Assembly (NCBI GenBank): GCA_009694515.1
Contig: SHUV01000009.1
Location: forward strand, 1-32,777
Direction of reading: 5' to 3'
From: Candidatus Planktophila sp.
Lineage (GTDB): Bacteria > Actinomycetota > Actinomycetes > Nanopelagicales > Nanopelagicaceae
DNA: 32,777 nt
Shown here: positions 19,575-30,074 of the stretch, one piece after another
How positions within the stretch are numbered: position 1 is the stretch's first letter
Layout of the letters: the number at the start of each line of letters is the position of its first letter
The notes under the pieces: model-generated
Seen by the model: the letters and a program-made list of their open reading frames with translations, nothing else
Database searches by the model: none
What the model was told of the DNA's origin: nothing
Position numbers and translations under genes: made by a program

Positions 19575-19892
19575 ATGGAATCACTTGCCCTGCTTGTCTC
19601 TGTCTTAATTTCTATAGTTTTATTCAGTGCACCTATTTCAATTCTCCTCTCAAGCCGAATAGCGCAATCGCTGACTAGCAATCTGGTGGCAAAGATTCTG
19701 CGTCGAGCTTTGATGGCCTTTGTCAGCGCTTTAGGTTCAGCTTTGTCTCTGTTTTTCATCATCAGCCCACTTCCTTTGTTGCTAAAGATAATTTCTCTAG
19801 CAGCTCTACTGGCAAACATCTGGTCGGTCGACCGTGAATATGGTGGGCGATTGATGATCCGCTTTAAATCTATTTTTAGAAAATCTGCATGA
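19575..19892 (+). CDS. Small membrane protein of unknown function
   Basis: A 105-residue hydrophobic protein with three likely membrane segments near residues 3-28, 42-65 and 67-85 and a basic C-terminus ([14 protein letters not shown]). No family is recognised. The ATG at 19575, preceded by GAGAGG, is preferred over an in-frame ATG at 19560 inside the GNAT gene. Its 3' end overlaps the GH18 gene at ATGA, so it is probably co-translated with that secreted protein. Confidence 0.65.
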   Translation: MESLALLVSVLISIVLFSAPISILLSSRIAQSLTSNLVAKILRRALMAFVSALGSALSLFFIISPLPLLLKIISLAALLANIWSVDREYGGRLMIRFKSIFRKSA

Positions 19893-21661
19893 AGAAGTTT
19901 TCACGCATTGGTTTAACATTTACTCTTCTATTTTCACTCTTGACCCATACTCTTTTCTTACCTGTTACACACGCTGAAGAAAATGTACCGCGCAAGATTC
20001 TTACCGGGTGGATCCCTTATTACTCAATGAAAACAGCGCTTCCAGATGTGCTCAACAATGTAGATCTCATTAAAGAGGTGATGCCCTTCTGGTACACACT
20101 TAAATACAACGGGAAGACTAAGGCCCCCGAAATTACCGACCTTTACGCACCGGCAAATCCAAGTGTCCCGATTTCGGTGCCCCTGACCGCACTTCGCAAT
20201 GCCAATCTTCAGATTATTCCTACGATTACCGATGGAACCAGTGAAGGTGTTCTCGCAGGATTACTTAAGAGTCCGACATCACGCACGCAAGTTGTCACTG
20301 CAATTATTAATCTAGTTCGTACAAATAACTATGACGGCATTGATATTGATTTTGAAGGATTCGCATTTGTTGATGGAAATACAACCTGGAAAGCAACGGC
20401 CCCGTTATGGATCGCATTTATCAAGGAATTAAGCCTTGCACTCCGTGCTGAAGAGAAACTGCTCTCAGTTTCAACTCCTTATGTGTTAAACCCTGCAGAT
20501 AAGCAGAAAGGTTATTACGTATACGCCTGGGCTGCGATCGCGGATTCAATCGACAAATTGCGCATCATGACATACGACTACTCGGTAGCAAAAGTTGGTC
20601 CGCTTGGACCAATTACGTGGGCTGAACGAACAGTGCAATATGCCATCTCAATCATGCCTGCATCGAAGGTATTTGTGGGCGTTCCTGGCTATGGGCGAGA
20701 CTGGGTAACGGCTGTTTCGGGAGTGTGTCCAGCAAACGTTGCTAATTCAGTAAAGGTCGGAGCGAAAGCTGCAACATTTGTGATGCGTGATGCACAATCA
20801 CTTGCAGCTACTTATAGTGCAACACCAATCTATGACGAGCAGTTTGGTGAGGTCACTTTTACTTATCAAAAGGTTTATAACGGAACCACGGCCGGCGGGC
20901 TCGCAACAACCTGCACAGCATCGCGCACAGCGTGGTATCAAGACAATCGCAGTTGGGCACTTCGAGCCGCACTTGTTACCAAATACCGCATAGGTGGAAT
21001 AACAGCGTGGACATTTGGCATGGAAGAGCCACTTGCAATGGAAGCTATTCGAACAGTTGCAAAATCAATCGCTCCAGATCAAGTCAACGTTGTGACATCA
21101 GTTGACAAGAGTGAGATGAGCTATGGAACGCCATTCACAGTTTCGGGGCAATTGAGCATCAAAGATAAGTCGCCTATTGCAAATCTTGCTGTCCGAGTCG
21201 AAGGAAAATCTGTGGGTGAAAGCACTTGGCGCACCTTGGCAAATGCAATCACAAACGCCGAAGGCAACTTTGAAAAGTCATTGATTCTCGGCAAATCAAC
21301 CACATTACGTGTTTATTCAGATGCAACGTGGGATAGGAGTGAAGGTCTTTCAGTTGAGATCCCAATCACCATCAGCAGACTGATGAATCTCAGCGCACCG
21401 ACGAGTGCTAAGTCTGGAACACAATTCCAGATTATTGGCAATGTGCTTCCTCGCAGCGCTGATGCCATGGTGGCCCTCGAGAAACTAACCGGGAAAGAGT
21501 GGCAATCTATTACTGAAACTGTACTCACTGATGCTCAAGGGAACTTTGTCATCACGGTCGCACCACAAAATCGAGGCGTGTATACCTTACGAACCACTGT
21601 GAGCGAAGATGCAAACTGGGCTGCCTTAACAAGTCAAACATTTAATATCATTATCCGGTGA
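19889..21661 (+). CDS. Secreted glycoside hydrolase family 18 protein with two C-terminal Ig-like domains
   Basis: A 590-residue protein. Residues 1-29 are a signal peptide (KKFSR, hydrophobic core, THA before EE). Residues 35-395 form a GH18 barrel: [11 protein letters not shown] gives the DxxDxDxE motif at 149-156 with the catalytic Glu156, and LRIMTYDYS and [10 protein letters not shown] are the later conserved strands. It resembles spore-cortex/YaaH-like peptidoglycan or chitin hydrolases. Residues about 405-490 and 495-590 are two beta-sandwich domains of similar plan (PFTVSGQL and QFQIIGNV). No membrane anchor or sorting signal follows. It is coupled by ATGA to the upstream gene and by TGATG to clpS. 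Confidence 0.88.
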
Positions 21662-24274: not shown

Positions 24275-25072
24275 ATGAATTCTGCGCCAATCGGTATCTT
24301 CGATTCAGGTGTTGGCGGTTTAACTGTTGCTAGAGCAATTCTTGATCAATTACCCAGTGAATCAACTGTATATATAGGTGACACAGCGCGCGGACCATAT
24401 GGCCCCAGGCCCCTGGCAGAAGTTCGCGACTTCGCTCTTGAAACTCTCGATTTTCTCGTGGGACAGGGAGTCAAAGCGCTCGTTATCGCATGCAACACCG
24501 CAAGTGCTGCCATGTTGCGCGATGCAAGAGAGCGATATTCGATACCAGTTATTGAAGTGATTCAACCCGCAGTCCGTCGCGCCGTTGCTGCAACACGATC
24601 GGGTCGAGTCGGCGTCATTGGAACTCGAGCAACAATTGAATCAAGTGCTTATCTCGATTCCTTTGCTGCTGCTCCGCAATTAACAATCGAATCCATTGCT
24701 TGCCCGCTCTTTGTAGAGTTTGTAGAGCGCGGTGAAACCTCTGGCGAGGCAATCATCAAAGTTGCGCGTGAGTATCTCAAGCCGATGATTGATGCCGATG
24801 TCGACACATTAGTCTTAGGTTGCACTCACTACCCACTTCTTACCGGTGTTATTTCATATGTTATGGGTAACGATGTTTCCCTGGTTTCAAGTGCTGAAGA
24901 AACTGCAAAGGATCTATACCGAGTATTGGTTGAGAATGATTTGCTTCGAGAAGGTACTGTGAGTGCATCTACTCACAAGTTCTTGGCTACCGGGGATGCA
25001 CAAGCATTTGAATCACTTGCACGACGCTTCTTAGGACCTGAAGTTGGTTCGGTGCAGCACCAAGATTTGTGA
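24275..25072 (+). CDS. murI: Glutamate racemase
   Basis: A 265-residue enzyme making D-glutamate for peptidoglycan. [13 protein letters not shown] is the N-terminal substrate loop. The two catalytic cysteines are C73 (IACNTAS) and C183 (LGCTHYPLL). Asp10 and [12 protein letters not shown] are conserved. Length and motifs are normal. It lies between cysM and rph, as in many Actinobacteria; the rhomboid gene often found before murI and the metallo-hydrolase gene often found after it in mycobacteria are both absent. Confidence 0.96.
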
Positions 25073-25128
25073 GCAATAAACTTTAATTCTAGCTTTATCC
25101 GCAGAACTAATAGAGAACGAGGAATGTA

Positions 25129-25854
25129 ATGGCACGCAACGATGGACGCACCGTAGATCAACTCCGCGATATCAAGATAACTCGTGGCTGGTTGGATCAC
25201 GCCGAAGGTTCAGTACTTGTTGAATTCGGAAAGACTCGCGTGCTCTGCGTAGCATCTTTCACCCCGGGTGTTCCTCGCTGGCTAAAAGATTCAGGTAATG
25301 GATGGGTAACCTCTGAATATGCAATGCTGCCTAGAGCCACTCATACGCGCTCTGATCGTGAGAGCGTGAAAGGAAAGCTGGGCGGTCGCACCCAAGAGAT
25401 TTCGCGCCTGGTCGGCCGCTCATTACGTGGGATTGTTGATATGAAAGAGCTTGGCGAAAACACAATCGTTATCGATTGCGATGTGCTGCAAGCAGATGGC
25501 GGAACTCGCACAGCTGCAATCACTGGTGCATATGTTGCACTAGCGGATGCAATTGCATGGGCGCAAAAAGAAGGTCATATAAAGGCAGGTGCAAAACCAC
25601 TTACAGACTCAGTCGCTGCGGTCAGCGTAGGAATTGTTGGTGGAGTTCCGATGCTTGATATCTGTTATGAAGAAGATGTGCGGGCAGAGACAGATATGAA
25701 CGTTGTATGCGCTGGTGATGGAAGATTTATCGAAGTCCAAGGAACTGCAGAAGGGGCACCATTTGATCGTGCACTTCTTGATTCGCTAATGAATCTTGCT
25801 GTCGCTGGATGCGCTGAACTTACCAACTTGCAGAAACAAGCACTCGCTCGCTAA
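25129..25854 (+). CDS. rph: Ribonuclease PH
   Basis: A 241-residue phosphorolytic 3'-5' exoribonuclease that trims tRNA 3' ends. [21 protein letters not shown] is the family N-terminus; [46 protein letters not shown] (phosphate site) and [17 protein letters not shown] are conserved. The ATG follows a CGAGGA ribosome site by five bases. Two in-frame stops are absent and length is normal. Confidence 0.96.
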
Positions 25855-26472
25855 ATGTCACACACGTTATTACTTGCCACTCGCAACAAAGGAAAGATTG
25901 AAGAGTTCGGCCGAATTCTTGAAGCTGTTGCACCTGGGGCGATTGATCTCGTGGGCCTTTATCAATTTCCGGATCTTGCTGATGTCATAGAAGATGGCGC
26001 AACTTTCGAAGAAAATGCGCTCAAGAAGGCGCGAGAAATGTCGATGGCAACGGGGCTGCCTGCAATTGCCGATGACAGTGGACTCTGTGTTGATTTCTTA
26101 GGTGGTGATCCAGGAATCTATTCTGCGCGATGGGCAGGTTCCCATGGTGATGATGCAGCAAATACTGAAAAAGTTCTACAACAGTTGCGCGATATTCCAG
26201 ATGAGAAAAGGGGAGCACATTTCACCTGTGTCGCGGCCCTCTATCTGCCTGATGGCAGGAGCCACTGGGAAGAGGCACAGTTCCACGGCTCAATTTTGCG
26301 CGCACCAGTGGGTGAATTTGGATTCGGGTATGACCCCATATTTCTACCCCATGGTTTCGCGCAGTCGAGTGCGCAAATGAGCGCAGAAACCAAGGATGCA
26401 ATCAGTCATCGGGGAAAATCGCTTCGAGCCATTGCACCGCATGTGATCACTTTGCTCGAAAGCCTGGGTTAA
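25855..26472 (+). CDS. rdgB: dITP/XTP pyrophosphatase (RdgB/HAM1)
   Basis: A 205-residue nucleotide house-cleaning enzyme. LLLATRNKGKIEEF is the N-terminal substrate site, and IADDSGLCVDFLGGDPGIYSARWAG and GFGYDPIFLP are the other family motifs. It removes inosine and xanthosine triphosphates from the pool. Its ATG follows the rph stop with no gap and has no obvious Shine-Dalgarno site, so translational coupling is likely. Confidence 0.95.
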   Translation: MSHTLLLATRNKGKIEEFGRILEAVAPGAIDLVGLYQFPDLADVIEDGATFEENALKKAREMSMATGLPAIADDSGLCVDFLGGDPGIYSARWAGSHGDDAANTEKVLQQLRDIPDEKRGAHFTCVAALYLPDGRSHWEEAQFHGSILRAPVGEFGFGYDPIFLPHGFAQSSAQMSAETKDAISHRGKSLRAIAPHVITLLESLG

Positions 26473-26511
26473 ACTTTGCCCGTACCCATCATCTTTGAAC
26501 GTCAACTATCT

Positions 26512-26516
26512 AGGAG
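26512..26516 (+). promoter_or_regulatory. Ribosome binding site of the H1-like gene
   Basis: AGGAG, 6 nt before a GTG at 26523; it sets the start codon. TAAACT at 26470-26475 is a possible -10 element upstream. Confidence 0.55.
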
Positions 26517-26522
26517 ATTACA

Positions 26523-27386
26523 GTGGCAGTAAAGAAGAAGTCAGCAGCGAAGAAAGCTGCTCCAAAGAAGTCAGCAGCGAAGAAAGCTGCTCCAAAGAAG
26601 TCAACCGCTAAGAAGAGCACAGCTAAAAAGAGCGCGGCAAAAAAGAGTGCACCCAAGAGAGCAGTGAAGAAGGCTGTTGTAAAGAAGAAGGTTACCAAGA
26701 AGTCAACAGCAAGAAAGTCAACTGCGAAGAAGACAGTAAAGAAGTCTGCAGCGCGTAAGAAGATTGCATCAAAGGTTGTTATCCCGCCAGTTCCATCAGT
26801 TGGCAGATCTCGTGTAAATGTTTCAACTACCCCAGCACCTGCTGCGCCACGCACTTCAGCAGCAAGTGCTAAGCCATTGGCTTCTTCAAAGCCAGCAACG
26901 AGTCCGAACAGCAAGTCGGCATCAAAGGCCCTCTTTGCAGTTCTACTTGGAATTTTGGTAGTAGGAGCAATTGTTATCACTAATTCAAATAAAGATAGCG
27001 ATATGGCGGCACCTGAAGCAACAGAATCTGCAGCACCTGAAGCAACAGAATCTGCAGCACCCGAGGAAACTCCGGCTGTGACAGATGCCACTAACACAAC
27101 AGGTGAGGCACCATCACGTTTTATTGGAAATTGGAAAGACAGCTCGAAGTCAGTCATGGTCATTACTTGGAATGCACCAGCTGGAGAAGTAAAGGGTTAC
27201 TTAGTAGAAACTCGAGCAAACCTCGGAGAGTGGAAAGTTGTATCAGAGGTTTCTGCAACAACAAATGCGGCAGAATTTGCTAAGACTGCAACCGAAGGAT
27301 CAACTGCATTCCGCGTATCAGCTGTCTACCCAGATGGTTCACTCGGAGTTGCAACACCATTCGGCTTTGCCGGCCAGTTCGAATAA
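26523..27386 (+). CDS. Membrane-anchored histone H1-like protein with FN3-like outer domain
   Basis: A 287-residue protein with an unusual plan. Residues 1-82 are almost only Lys, Ala, Ser, Thr and Pro, in KKSAAKK/KKSTAKK repeats like bacterial H1-like and AlgP-type DNA-binding tails. Residues 83-135 are a flexible Ser/Pro/Ala linker. Residues 136-154 (ALFAVLLGILVVGAIVITN) form one membrane span. Residues 160-195 are an acidic repeat linker (APEATESA twice). Residues 196-287 look like a fibronectin type III domain (VMVITWNAPAGEVKGYLVETR... AFRVSAVYPDG). By the positive-inside rule the basic part would be cytoplasmic and could touch DNA, with FN3 outside. No named function is known to me. GTG start after AGGAG. 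Confidence 0.75.
   Translation: MAVKKKSAAKKAAPKKSAAKKAAPKKSTAKKSTAKKSAAKKSAPKRAVKKAVVKKKVTKKSTARKSTAKKTVKKSAARKKIASKVVIPPVPSVGRSRVNVSTTPAPAAPRTSAASAKPLASSKPATSPNSKSASKALFAVLLGILVVGAIVITNSNKDSDMAAPEATESAAPEATESAAPEETPAVTDATNTTGEAPSRFIGNWKDSSKSVMVITWNAPAGEVKGYLVETRANLGEWKVVSEVSATTNAAEFAKTATEGSTAFRVSAVYPDGSLGVATPFGFAGQFE
26535..26602 (+). repeat. 30-bp perfect tandem repeat in the H1-like coding region
   Basis: Two identical 30-bp units (26535-26564 and 26565-26594) and an 8-bp partial third copy. The unit is a multiple of three, so each copy adds ten residues of the basic tail. Confidence 0.9.
27009..27056 (+). repeat. 24-bp perfect tandem repeat in the acidic linker
   Basis: Two identical 24-bp units (27009-27032, 27033-27056), each encoding eight residues (APEATESA) just outside the membrane span of the H1-like protein. 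Confidence 0.9.
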
Positions 27387-27395
27387 AAGTTATAG

Positions 27396-27429
27396 AAAAA
27401 ACCTCGACCAGCATCGGTCGGGGTTTTTT
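27396..27429. terminator. Bidirectional intrinsic terminator between convergent genes
   Basis: ACCTCGACC (27401-27409) pairs with GGTCGGGGT (27416-27424) across a 6-nt loop, with A residues on the left and T residues on the right. It can serve both the H1-like gene and the acyltransferase, whose stop codon overlaps the T run. Confidence 0.85.
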
Positions 27430-29174
27430 CATTTCAAATACTTAAGAATTTCTCCAACATAGACTGCAACACCTGTCGGCACCAAGTGAATTCCATCGGG
27501 TGCAAAGTATTCGGGATGGCCCATAGAAATTGAATTCCAATCAATTAGCGTGACTGTGGAATATTGTTGGGCAACCTCGGCAACTAGTGCATTATTCCCA
27601 TCTCGCCAAGGTCTTGATACTGCCGTATTCACCACAATCACTTGAGGCTGATCTTTTACAAGTTCGAATATTGCCTGGACATCACTGCGATTTAATACCC
27701 CGTTGTTTCCCAAGTTAAAGATCACCGGTGAATTACCAATTTCAGCCTTATCACGTGTCATGACCTCTAGAAGCTCAGGCGCCTGTCGCCCAATTCGCGC
27801 ATTCATCACTGATATCGGCATTTGCGCATCAAGTGAGGCGCGAATTCCCAAGATGACCGAATCACCTGTCACCCAGAGCCCATCTGCCACTGGCGCACTG
27901 ATTGAAACGTCTGGAGAAGTGAGAGCCTTTTCTATCGCAGCGCGTTGTTCATTGCCTATCGAGACTGCGCGAACACTGACAACGGTAGCAAGTGCAAGTA
28001 CAACAACGAAAACAGCTGCAAAGGTACGTGTTTGTCGCGAGCGTTCTTTTTTAGTTCTGTATTTAAGTCCTTTAAGCCAAAGCTTGAGAGCTCCTCGACG
28101 AATTGGCTGTTCCACATATCGCAAAGAAATATCAGCTAGAGCAAAAACAATAAGAATACGAAGTGCATAAAGCGCCCACATCTGACCAGCTAGATCAACG
28201 CTCGGGCGAGTAACTTGGAAAATTATCCAATGCCATAAATACATCGCATATGAACGCTGACCAATCCACACCAGAATACGATTTTGCAGAATCGGTGCGA
28301 AGCGAGATGCTGGATGAACAACCGACATGATTATTGAGGCTCCGAAGAGTCCAGCAAGTGGGAAGGCAATTTTGTATAAAGTCGGTTTGGTTTCATCGAT
28401 AAGTAAGAAAGTTGCGATGATTCCAATAAAACCAAAGACACCAATTCCGTCGATGAAGTCCTGAGCCTTCTTACTTACATTGATCGTGAAATTCTGTGGA
28501 ATCCAACTTACGGCAAGTGCTGCACCTAAGAACAATCCAATGCTGTGGGTATCTGTACCGAAGTATACGTGGCTCACTTTCGACGCATTTGAGGCATCGA
28601 GTGAGAATGAAACAAGAAGCAGCGTGATACCGGAGGCTGCGGCAATAACAAGTGCGGCAATTGGTATCCGACGTTTACCTAAGCGCTTGAGAATAAAGAA
28701 AAGAATTAGCGGCCAAAGAAGATAAAACTGTGCCTCAACTGCAAGTGACCATGTGTGCTGAAGAAGAGGTGGCCGGCCGATACTTTCGAAATAATCTTGG
28801 TGACGCGCGACCAGCCACCAATTCATAGTGCCTGTGAGTGAAAATGGCATATCTGTGAGAAGTCGCTTGATGGTATCGGGCGCCCAAATACCAATTGCAA
28901 TCGTTGTAGTGGTCACTGTGAAGATGAGGGCTGGCAGCAATCGCCGAGCGCGCGCAAGGTAAAAGCCGCGAAGATCAAGCCCACCGCTCTGCTCAATAGA
29001 ATCAAGGAGCAAACGTGTTATTACATAACCAGAGATGACAAAGAAGAGATCAACACCGAGAAATCCGCCCGGAATCCAAGTGAAACCCAGGTGATAAAGC
29101 ATCACCGCAATTACTGCCAGTGCACGAAGCCCATCGATCGCAGGGATGTATTGGATACCGCGATTGGCAGCCAT
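27429..29174 (-). CDS. OatA-like acyltransferase 3 with C-terminal SGNH domain
   Basis: A 581-residue membrane O-acyltransferase. The first 400 residues carry about ten or eleven membrane spans with family motifs IPAIDGLRALAVIAVMLYHLG, GGFLGVDLFFVISGYVITRLL, FYLARARRLLPAL and LQHTWSLAVEAQFYLLWPL. From about residue 430 an SGNH domain follows: GDS at 437-439, GNNG near 489-492, DGIH at 560-563. Such proteins transfer acetyl groups to peptidoglycan or surface sugars. The exact acceptor is unknown. It starts 5 nt after the coiled-coil gene on the same strand, so the two are co-transcribed. Confidence 0.9.
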   Translation of the reverse strand: MAANRGIQYIPAIDGLRALAVIAVMLYHLGFTWIPGGFLGVDLFFVISGYVITRLLLDSIEQSGGLDLRGFYLARARRLLPALIFTVTTTTIAIGIWAPDTIKRLLTDMPFSLTGTMNWWLVARHQDYFESIGRPPLLQHTWSLAVEAQFYLLWPLILFFILKRLGKRRIPIAALVIAAASGITLLLVSFSLDASNASKVSHVYFGTDTHSIGLFLGAALAVSWIPQNFTINVSKKAQDFIDGIGVFGFIGIIATFLLIDETKPTLYKIAFPLAGLFGASIIMSVVHPASRFAPILQNRILVWIGQRSYAMYLWHWIIFQVTRPSVDLAGQMWALYALRILIVFALADISLRYVEQPIRRGALKLWLKGLKYRTKKERSRQTRTFAAVFVVVLALATVVSVRAVSIGNEQRAAIEKALTSPDVSISAPVADGLWVTGDSVILGIRASLDAQMPISVMNARIGRQAPELLEVMTRDKAEIGNSPVIFNLGNNGVLNRSDVQAIFELVKDQPQVIVVNTAVSRPWRDGNNALVAEVAQQYSTVTLIDWNSISMGHPEYFAPDGIHLVPTGVAVYVGEILKYLK

Positions 29175-29179
29175 ATGAA

Positions 29180-29989
29180 TTACTTGCGCTTAGTAGCAGA
29201 TTTCTTAACAGGGCGCTTTGCAGCAGATTTTTTAGAACGTTTAGGTGCACTTATAGCAGCGCGTGTGCGCTTACTCTCTACGGCAATTGGAGCAGATCTT
29301 TTAATAGTTCCATCTTCATTTATTGCACTATTAACTACATCGCTCATCTTACTTAAGCGAGCAAAGGCAGAATCTAATCGGTCACGAGATTGTGCGATTG
29401 CACTCTCGGCAGCAGATAGCGCCTGATTTTGCGAGCGATAGAGACGTTCAGTATCTGTGATGATTTCGGCAAGCCATGCTCGATACTCATTGACGTTCTC
29501 AGATGCTTCACCGATTACTCGTTCAGCTTCACGACGCGCAGCTGTGGCAAGTGCAGCAGCTTCGCGGCGCTTACTCTCCATAACTAGATCTGCCTCACGA
29601 CTTGCCTCACGAATCAGCTCGGCTGCTTCAAGTTCAGCTACGGAAATATATTTACGCCCTCGAGTTTCAGCTCCAGCCAGGACGCTTCGTGCCTTGTTCT
29701 CAGCACCCTCAAGAACATCTTTAGCGGTACGTGATGATTCAGAAATGACACGGTCGGCAGTGGAAAGTGCCTTTGCCTCGCGAGCTTGCGCTGATTTGAT
29801 CATCGCCATTGCTGTTTCGGTGGCAAGGATTTCAAACTCTTCCCGAGTAAGACCAGTGATATCGCGACGTGAACGTAGATCAGCTAATTGAGATTCAAGA
29901 TCACGAATGCGATCAACAGGGTTTGCAATTGGTTCACGATCGGTTTCTTCACGGAAACCCACCCAGTTGCGGAAATTCTTCTCTGCCAT
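29180..29989 (-). CDS. Coiled-coil (DivIVA/Scy-like) protein with lysine-rich H1-like tail
   Basis: A 269-residue protein. Residues 1-45 include VDRIRDLESQLADLRSR, a short heptad segment. Residues 50-220 are a long Ala/Glu/Arg-rich coiled coil (EAAELIREASREADLVMESK, AARREAERVIGEASENV), as in actinobacterial polar-growth scaffolds and DivIVA relatives. Residues 240-269 form a basic tail (KRSKKSAAKRPVKKSATKRK) like that of the H1-like protein nearby. There is no membrane span and no typical DivIVA N-terminus. Start is uncertain: ATG 29989 with GAGAG upstream is preferred over ATG 30004. It probably forms a filament or scaffold able to touch DNA; this is inference. Confidence 0.72.
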   Translation of the reverse strand: MAEKNFRNWVGFREETDREPIANPVDRIRDLESQLADLRSRRDITGLTREEFEILATETAMAMIKSAQAREAKALSTADRVISESSRTAKDVLEGAENKARSVLAGAETRGRKYISVAELEAAELIREASREADLVMESKRREAAALATAARREAERVIGEASENVNEYRAWLAEIITDTERLYRSQNQALSAAESAIAQSRDRLDSAFARLSKMSDVVNSAINEDGTIKRSAPIAVESKRTRAAISAPKRSKKSAAKRPVKKSATKRK

Positions 29990-30074
29990 TGTGAGAACTC
30001 TCATTCGCGGTATCGACTCGGATATTTATCACCAGGCTTCACACCCCGTGAGAGTCCTAGATTAGGGCATTGCG

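Follow-up and report, generated by a model that had tools for sequence, protein, structure and literature searches.

The window analysed here, a stretch of 32,777 nucleotides, is one whole contig of a 0.92 Mb, 74% complete source genome, and its host is Candidatus Planktophila of the family Nanopelagicaceae, the acI freshwater actinobacteria. The gene under study, referred to here as K-FN3, spans 26523..27386 on the + strand and encodes a membrane protein of 287 aa with a Lys/Ala tail and an FN3 domain, the FN3 part being closest to that of Candidatus Planktophila versatilis (92% identity) among named relatives. The chain of four parts that a preliminary description had read at this position, namely tail, membrane span, acidic linker and FN3-like domain, is present and is not a product of chance. 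An AGGAG ribosome-binding site (26512..26516, + strand) lies 6 nt upstream of the GTG start; both an AGGAG-like site and the GTG start are kept in 54/54 same-genus orthologues read at full length, and a GTG-GCN N-terminus (VAVKK or close) is found in 54/54 same-genus proteins, the window's included. The GTG start with its kept ribosome-binding site perhaps reflects selection to limit K-FN3 expression. A spurious ORF is rejected by the conserved start, the dN/dS and the synteny. An opposite-strand ORF at 26510-27163, which arises because of the AAG and GCN codons on the + strand, was likewise rejected as a real gene, since synonymous changes prevail on the + strand.

Upstream of K-FN3 on the + strand lie murI, rph and rdgB (24275..26472), where rph and rdgB were assigned by Pfam and murI by similarity. 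This murI-rph-rdgB order precedes K-FN3 wherever the contig reaches among the 102 loci compared, which include some species twice (two collections), and is family-wide. Downstream, a terminator-like hairpin with T-runs (27405..27429), called on the - strand and seen by eye to have a T-run on the + strand as well, is situated between K-FN3 and the convergent gene of an acyltransferase-3 membrane protein (27429..29174, - strand; Pfam PF01757, 1e-28), which adjoins K-FN3 in 102/102 loci. The next gene (29180..29989, - strand) encodes a coiled-coil protein with a C-terminal Lys/Ala/Ser tail, the longest ORF (29180-30004) having been shortened to begin at its M6, which is invariant; it is a constant neighbour, located two genes beyond K-FN3 in nearly all loci that are long enough. 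The coiled-coil protein is highly conserved, retains an N-terminal segment of the MAEKNFxNWVGF type and is predicted by AlphaFold2 to comprise a short helix (residues 6-14), a helix of 174 residues (54-227) and a disordered, Lys-rich C-terminal tail, which is of Lys/Ala/Ser make-up in most genera.

K-FN3 is a core gene in 12 genera that are among the most abundant freshwater bacteria. It is present in 57/60 other sampled genomes of the genus, the three congeners without it being 41-60% complete, and in 12/17 genera of the family, always with the same plan and in the same place (murI-rph-rdgB-gene). A further 11 genera show the plan at 20 loci, and full-length reads of 74 orthologues give the same domain order. 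Although A2 matches occur in 14/17 genera, g41 and g45 were excluded since their matches lie inside large FN3 proteins (frames of 503-16932 aa). At the rdgB locus the gene is absent from the g41, g45 and g48 genomes read, and in genera g38 and g50 the locus was not readable (short contig; rdgB not found). Outside the family, an FN3-profile search of about 270 other Actinomycetes genomes (class sample of 297) returned no orthologue; the domain order that the preliminary description proposed to seek in other actinobacterial genomes does recur, within the family. As separate observations, a rare second protein of the K-FN3 plan (Lys/Ala tail, span, FN3-like domain) is encoded at L061:715-1677 (G045:C26), and an FN3 profile match in a 332-aa frame at G033:C39:4151-4423 is a possible second-copy case. 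Searching for another widespread paralogue retrieved only its source genome and K-FN3 orthologues.

Residues 1-82 of K-FN3 (26523..26768, + strand) form a Lys/Ala/Ser/Thr repeat tail that is predicted to be disordered (pLDDT about 50) and is putatively cytoplasmic. The tail contains 35 K/R and 0 D/E, an excess of K/R with a binomial P of about 1.6e-14 against the 10% K/R in other window genes, and the best 80-residue stretch carries a net charge of +35 in K-FN3 compared with +15 in the next best window gene. Over 74 orthologues the tail is composed of K 38%, A 25%, V 12%, S 9%, R 4% and about 0.3% acidic residues, and measures 47-142 residues by a K/R-density rule; repeats, which in the coding DNA of the window include units of 30 bp and 15 bp, change its length across orthologues, whereas the composition stays constant. 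Tail dN/dS against close relatives is 0.06-0.19, with substitutions mostly among A/S/T/V/P and K/R and no acidic gain. The basic repeat tail and its charge are under purifying selection, as follows from the low dN/dS together with substitutions that nearly all spare basic residues. The histone-H1-like character first proposed for the tail is supported: the HC2 profile (PF07382) matches it in 48/54 same-genus members (best 4.5e-13) and its AKK/PAKK make-up is that of the HU tail. The window protein itself, at 35.4 bits, scores under the curated HC2 cut-off of 40, which some orthologues (G040, G052, G102) exceed. HC2 and histone H1-like nucleoproteins resemble K-FN3 in the tail match, but are soluble and have neither span nor FN3, both of which K-FN3 possesses.

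Between the tail and the span, the juxtamembrane motif VVIPPVPSVGRSRVNVSTTPAP (residues 85-106; 26775..26840, + strand) is conserved across most genera of the family with the consensus [IV]xPxVP ... [VI]STTPxP, where P91 is nearly invariant (alignment A1). Like the coiled-coil neighbour, this motif was absent from the preliminary description. A single transmembrane helix, indicated by AlphaFold2, hydropathy and dN/dS, occupies residues 134-153 (26922..26981, + strand), with a mean hydropathy of 2.56 and a dN/dS of 0.02-0.21. Across the 54 same-genus proteins the charge ahead of the span ranges from +31 to +50, and that behind it from -1 to -14. This asymmetry and the one AlphaFold2 helix agree with the single span and the tail-inside topology considered earlier, and the charge argues strongly that the tail lies inside and the FN3 domain outside. 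The juxtamembrane motif would accordingly be positioned on the cytoplasmic side, where it may be a docking motif. No Cys is present in any of the 54 same-genus proteins, and K-FN3 therefore has no lipobox.

Following the span, residues 158-194 (26994..27104, + strand) make up an acidic Pro/Ala/Ser/Thr/Glu linker of net charge -9, predicted to be disordered and extracytoplasmic, in which an exact 24-bp tandem duplication (27009-27061) codes for APEATESA. Residues 195-287 (27105..27383, + strand), putatively extracytoplasmic, are predicted by AlphaFold2 with 54 orthologues to adopt the strands of a beta-sandwich (pLDDT about 95). Foldseek against the PDB yields FN3 domains throughout, with TM mostly 0.6-0.79 when normalised to single-domain targets, and a profile built from the 54 orthologues finds titin FN3 domains at 6e-30. 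The predicted fold, its structural neighbours and the titin match together turn what had been called FN3-like, with structure prediction suggested as the check, into a true FN3 domain. Pfam fn3 is detected in 28/54 orthologues, the window protein not among them. Invariant positions of the domain are P197, W216, G225, E229, W237, T261, R264, Y269, D271, F280 and G284, which include the B-strand Trp (W216) and the F-strand Tyr (Y269) of the Ig-like FN3 sandwich, and the domain dN/dS is about 0.1.

The single HU found in the genome (L062:7772-8236; G000:C9:17771) has a Lys/Ala/Pro tail of the mycobacterial HupB type. This HU tail has K 39%, A 32% and 7 AKK in 59 residues, compared with K 39%, A 26% and 6 AKK in 82 residues for K-FN3; a single HU was found in each of seven genomes, with a tail make-up nearly that of K-FN3, and the AKK content of the two tails is similar in the three genomes compared. 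The genome search lists the HU tail against the K-FN3 tail at E 1.6e-4, and BLASTP gives no alignment between the K-FN3 tail and the genome's own HU, as expected for low complexity; the likeness is therefore one of composition and motif, and not proven homology. Mycobacterial HupB and actinobacterial HU share the Lys-repeat grammar of K-FN3, within the same genome too, but HU is a soluble DNA-bending dimer, whereas K-FN3 is a membrane protein without an HU domain, the HU fold (PF00216) being absent from the window protein. A zinc-finger protein of the DksA/TraR type and a sigma-70 factor (L214, L212, L219, L215) also carry N-terminal Lys/Ala tails, and histone-like tails on transcription proteins look widespread in this family. 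Repeats of the Lys/Ala type bind DNA in HupB and are both necessary and sufficient for binding in HbhA (PMC10665949), and lysine repeats keep Streptomyces TopA on DNA (PMC7398561). HbhA of M. tuberculosis combines a Lys/Ala/Pro DNA-binding tail with a link to the cell envelope, as is proposed for K-FN3, but is known as a surface adhesin with a C-terminal tail and no FN3, whereas the tail of K-FN3 is N-terminal and an FN3 domain is present (PMC10665949).

The closest protein by design is Rv3852 ('H-NS') of M. tuberculosis, which is membrane-anchored, has N-terminal KAAK/PAAK repeats with the membrane helix downstream, and binds DNA and the coiled-coil polar scaffold Wag31 (PMC8233713), the PAKK repeats having been found to bind DNA (PMC4433263). 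The effects of deleting Rv3852 are mild and the protein appears non-essential (PMC8233713), so that a nucleoid-organising role is uncertain even for this known analogue. Like Rv3852, K-FN3 bears N-terminal tetrapeptide-type repeats (AKK/APKK/SAAKK, residues 1-82). Rv3852, however, is 134 aa long, with an acidic N-terminal lead, a helix at the very C-terminus and no outer domain, whereas the helix of K-FN3 is internal (134-153) and is followed by a 134-residue outer part, with an acidic linker, an FN3 domain and a juxtamembrane motif as further differences; moreover, Rv3852 is confined to slow-growing mycobacteria. Alignments between the two proteins extend over at most 30 residues and stay inside the repeats (best E 0.026). 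Since nothing significant aligns beyond the repeats, homology to Rv3852 is not demonstrable, and we suggest that the first part of the K-FN3 design may work as that of Rv3852 does, with no claim to family membership. Of the initial statement that no system of this plan had been described, one half gives way, the Rv3852 design being already known, and the other stands, no FN3-ectodomain version having been found in the open-licence literature, which likewise returned nothing on Planktophila with FN3 or on Nanopelagicales with the nucleoid. New relative to Rv3852 are the FN3 ectodomain, the internal span, the core conservation and the linked coiled-coil neighbour. In eukaryotes, the lamin B receptor is an inner nuclear membrane protein that directs a basic tail to chromatin; it is alike in principle to K-FN3 as a membrane-anchored basic tail, but the domains differ and no homology is claimed.

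The best explanation, to which we assign a probability of roughly 0.55, is that K-FN3 serves as a membrane-spanning, histone-tailed nucleoid anchor. Beyond the observed architecture, conservation, selection on tail charge, predicted FN3 fold and synteny, we infer that the tail sits on DNA and that the nucleoid is joined to the envelope. K-FN3 would be a single-pass membrane protein with its N-terminus inside. Its disordered Lys/Ala stretch of about 82 residues, of the type found in histone H1 and HupB, probably binds the chromosome regardless of sequence at the membrane's inner face. A single helix would span the membrane, the flexible acidic linker would extend into the cell-wall zone and the FN3 domain outside might hold an envelope protein or a polymer of the wall. 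Overall, nucleoid and envelope would be joined by a distributed tie. The [IV]xPxVP...STTPxP motif might, in addition, dock a cytoplasmic partner, with the linked, K-tailed coiled-coil protein as the leading candidate.

Given the tail-inside orientation, DNA is probably the main ligand of the tail, and lipid and RNA are its main competitors. The tail could instead bind curved membrane or an anionic phospholipid such as cardiolipin or phosphatidic acid, or serve retention or assembly, with FN3 as the working part of an envelope or polar-growth factor, a reading that is conceivable and yet clearly the less probable one. It draws on the positively charged, disordered, cytoplasmic extension of mycobacterial FtsK, which bound anionic lipid, namely cardiolipin and phosphatidic acid, and not DNA (PMC13277299), as well as on the weak Wag31-like match of the linked coiled-coil (NF050102, E 1e-3). 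The N-terminal FtsK extension and the K-FN3 tail are indeed both positive, disordered, cytoplasmic tails on membrane proteins, but FtsK is a DNA translocase and its extension is not described as a Lys/Ala repeat (PMC13277299). The AKK/PAKK grammar of K-FN3, by contrast, is that of the genome's own HU tail, a repeat type with measured DNA binding; furthermore, 82 residues with a charge of +35 go far beyond the needs of a lipid-binding juxtamembrane patch, and some 50 weakly charged residues intervene between tail and membrane. Lys-rich tails generally bind RNA and the basic tails of membrane insertases face ribosomes, and the K-FN3 tail might on this basis bind RNA or the ribosome close to the membrane, coupling translation or transertion to the envelope. 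We regard this as improbable, as the YidC tail of relatives differs, consisting of an acidic stretch and then a poly-K end with no AKK, and the repeat type of K-FN3 is that of DNA-binding proteins. Finally, the extracellular ligands of the HBHA Lys/Ala/Pro tail are sulfated sugars (PMC10665949), and an HBHA-like adhesin would result if the hydrophobic stretch were a cleaved signal or the tail lay outside. This is very improbable: signal peptides do not tolerate the roughly 130 residues with a charge of +43 that lie ahead of the helix, all of the charge favours the tail inside, and the host is free-living plankton. An outside tail or a cleaved signal was thus rejected on the charge and length before the span.

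The nucleoid-anchor reading can be extended to a lineage-specific scaffold of two proteins, in which K-FN3 recruits the coiled-coil K-tailed neighbour and the two organise chromosome and cell pole, an extension that we consider doubtful. The Rv3852-Wag31 pair provides a precedent (PMC8233713), and the neighbour is linked to K-FN3, its gene being present in 10/10 genomes with K-FN3 and in 1/15 family genomes without it, the one such case being a fragment at a contig end, in a different context and in a genome with 3% contamination. The Pfam model of DivIVA, moreover, has no match in the ten Nanopelagicaceae genomes searched (0/10 with PF05103; G000, G052, G040, G015, G100, G102, G108, G104, G118 and G111), the Corynebacterium control being positive, although sensitivity may explain the absence. 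That DivIVA is not detected in these ten genomes is unusual for actinobacteria. The neighbour itself matches no Pfam family above noise, PF05103 included, and reaches 19 bits against the Wag31 model NF050102, for which the cut-off is 260; it was therefore rejected as a true DivIVA. Against the extension, the neighbour is encoded on the opposite strand, and the co-occurrence may reflect one gain of a linked block instead of repeated evidence. A murI, rph and rdgB tree places the block-lacking genera at its base, although some deep supports are no higher than 66-72, and a single gain of the K-FN3 and coiled-coil block is the simplest account; the co-occurrence would then be one linked event with faithful retention, and not many independent events. 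That this block, gained once, forms a nucleoid-envelope scaffold coupling chromosome position to the wall without a recognisable DivIVA is a speculative and rather unlikely proposal.

The physical tie between chromosome and envelope in bacteria is an old question for which few proteins are capable of a direct link. K-FN3 brings a DNA-binding-type tail, a span and a wall-side domain together in one chain, so that the question can be tested on a single small protein, and its locus offers a coiled-coil protein as candidate partner. Slow-growing mycobacteria are, moreover, not alone in having a membrane-anchored lysine-repeat design, which is no oddity of theirs. Elsewhere in the window, the gene at 19889-21661 (+ strand) probably encodes a secreted family-18 glycosyl hydrolase with a C-terminal carboxypeptidase-regulatory-like domain.
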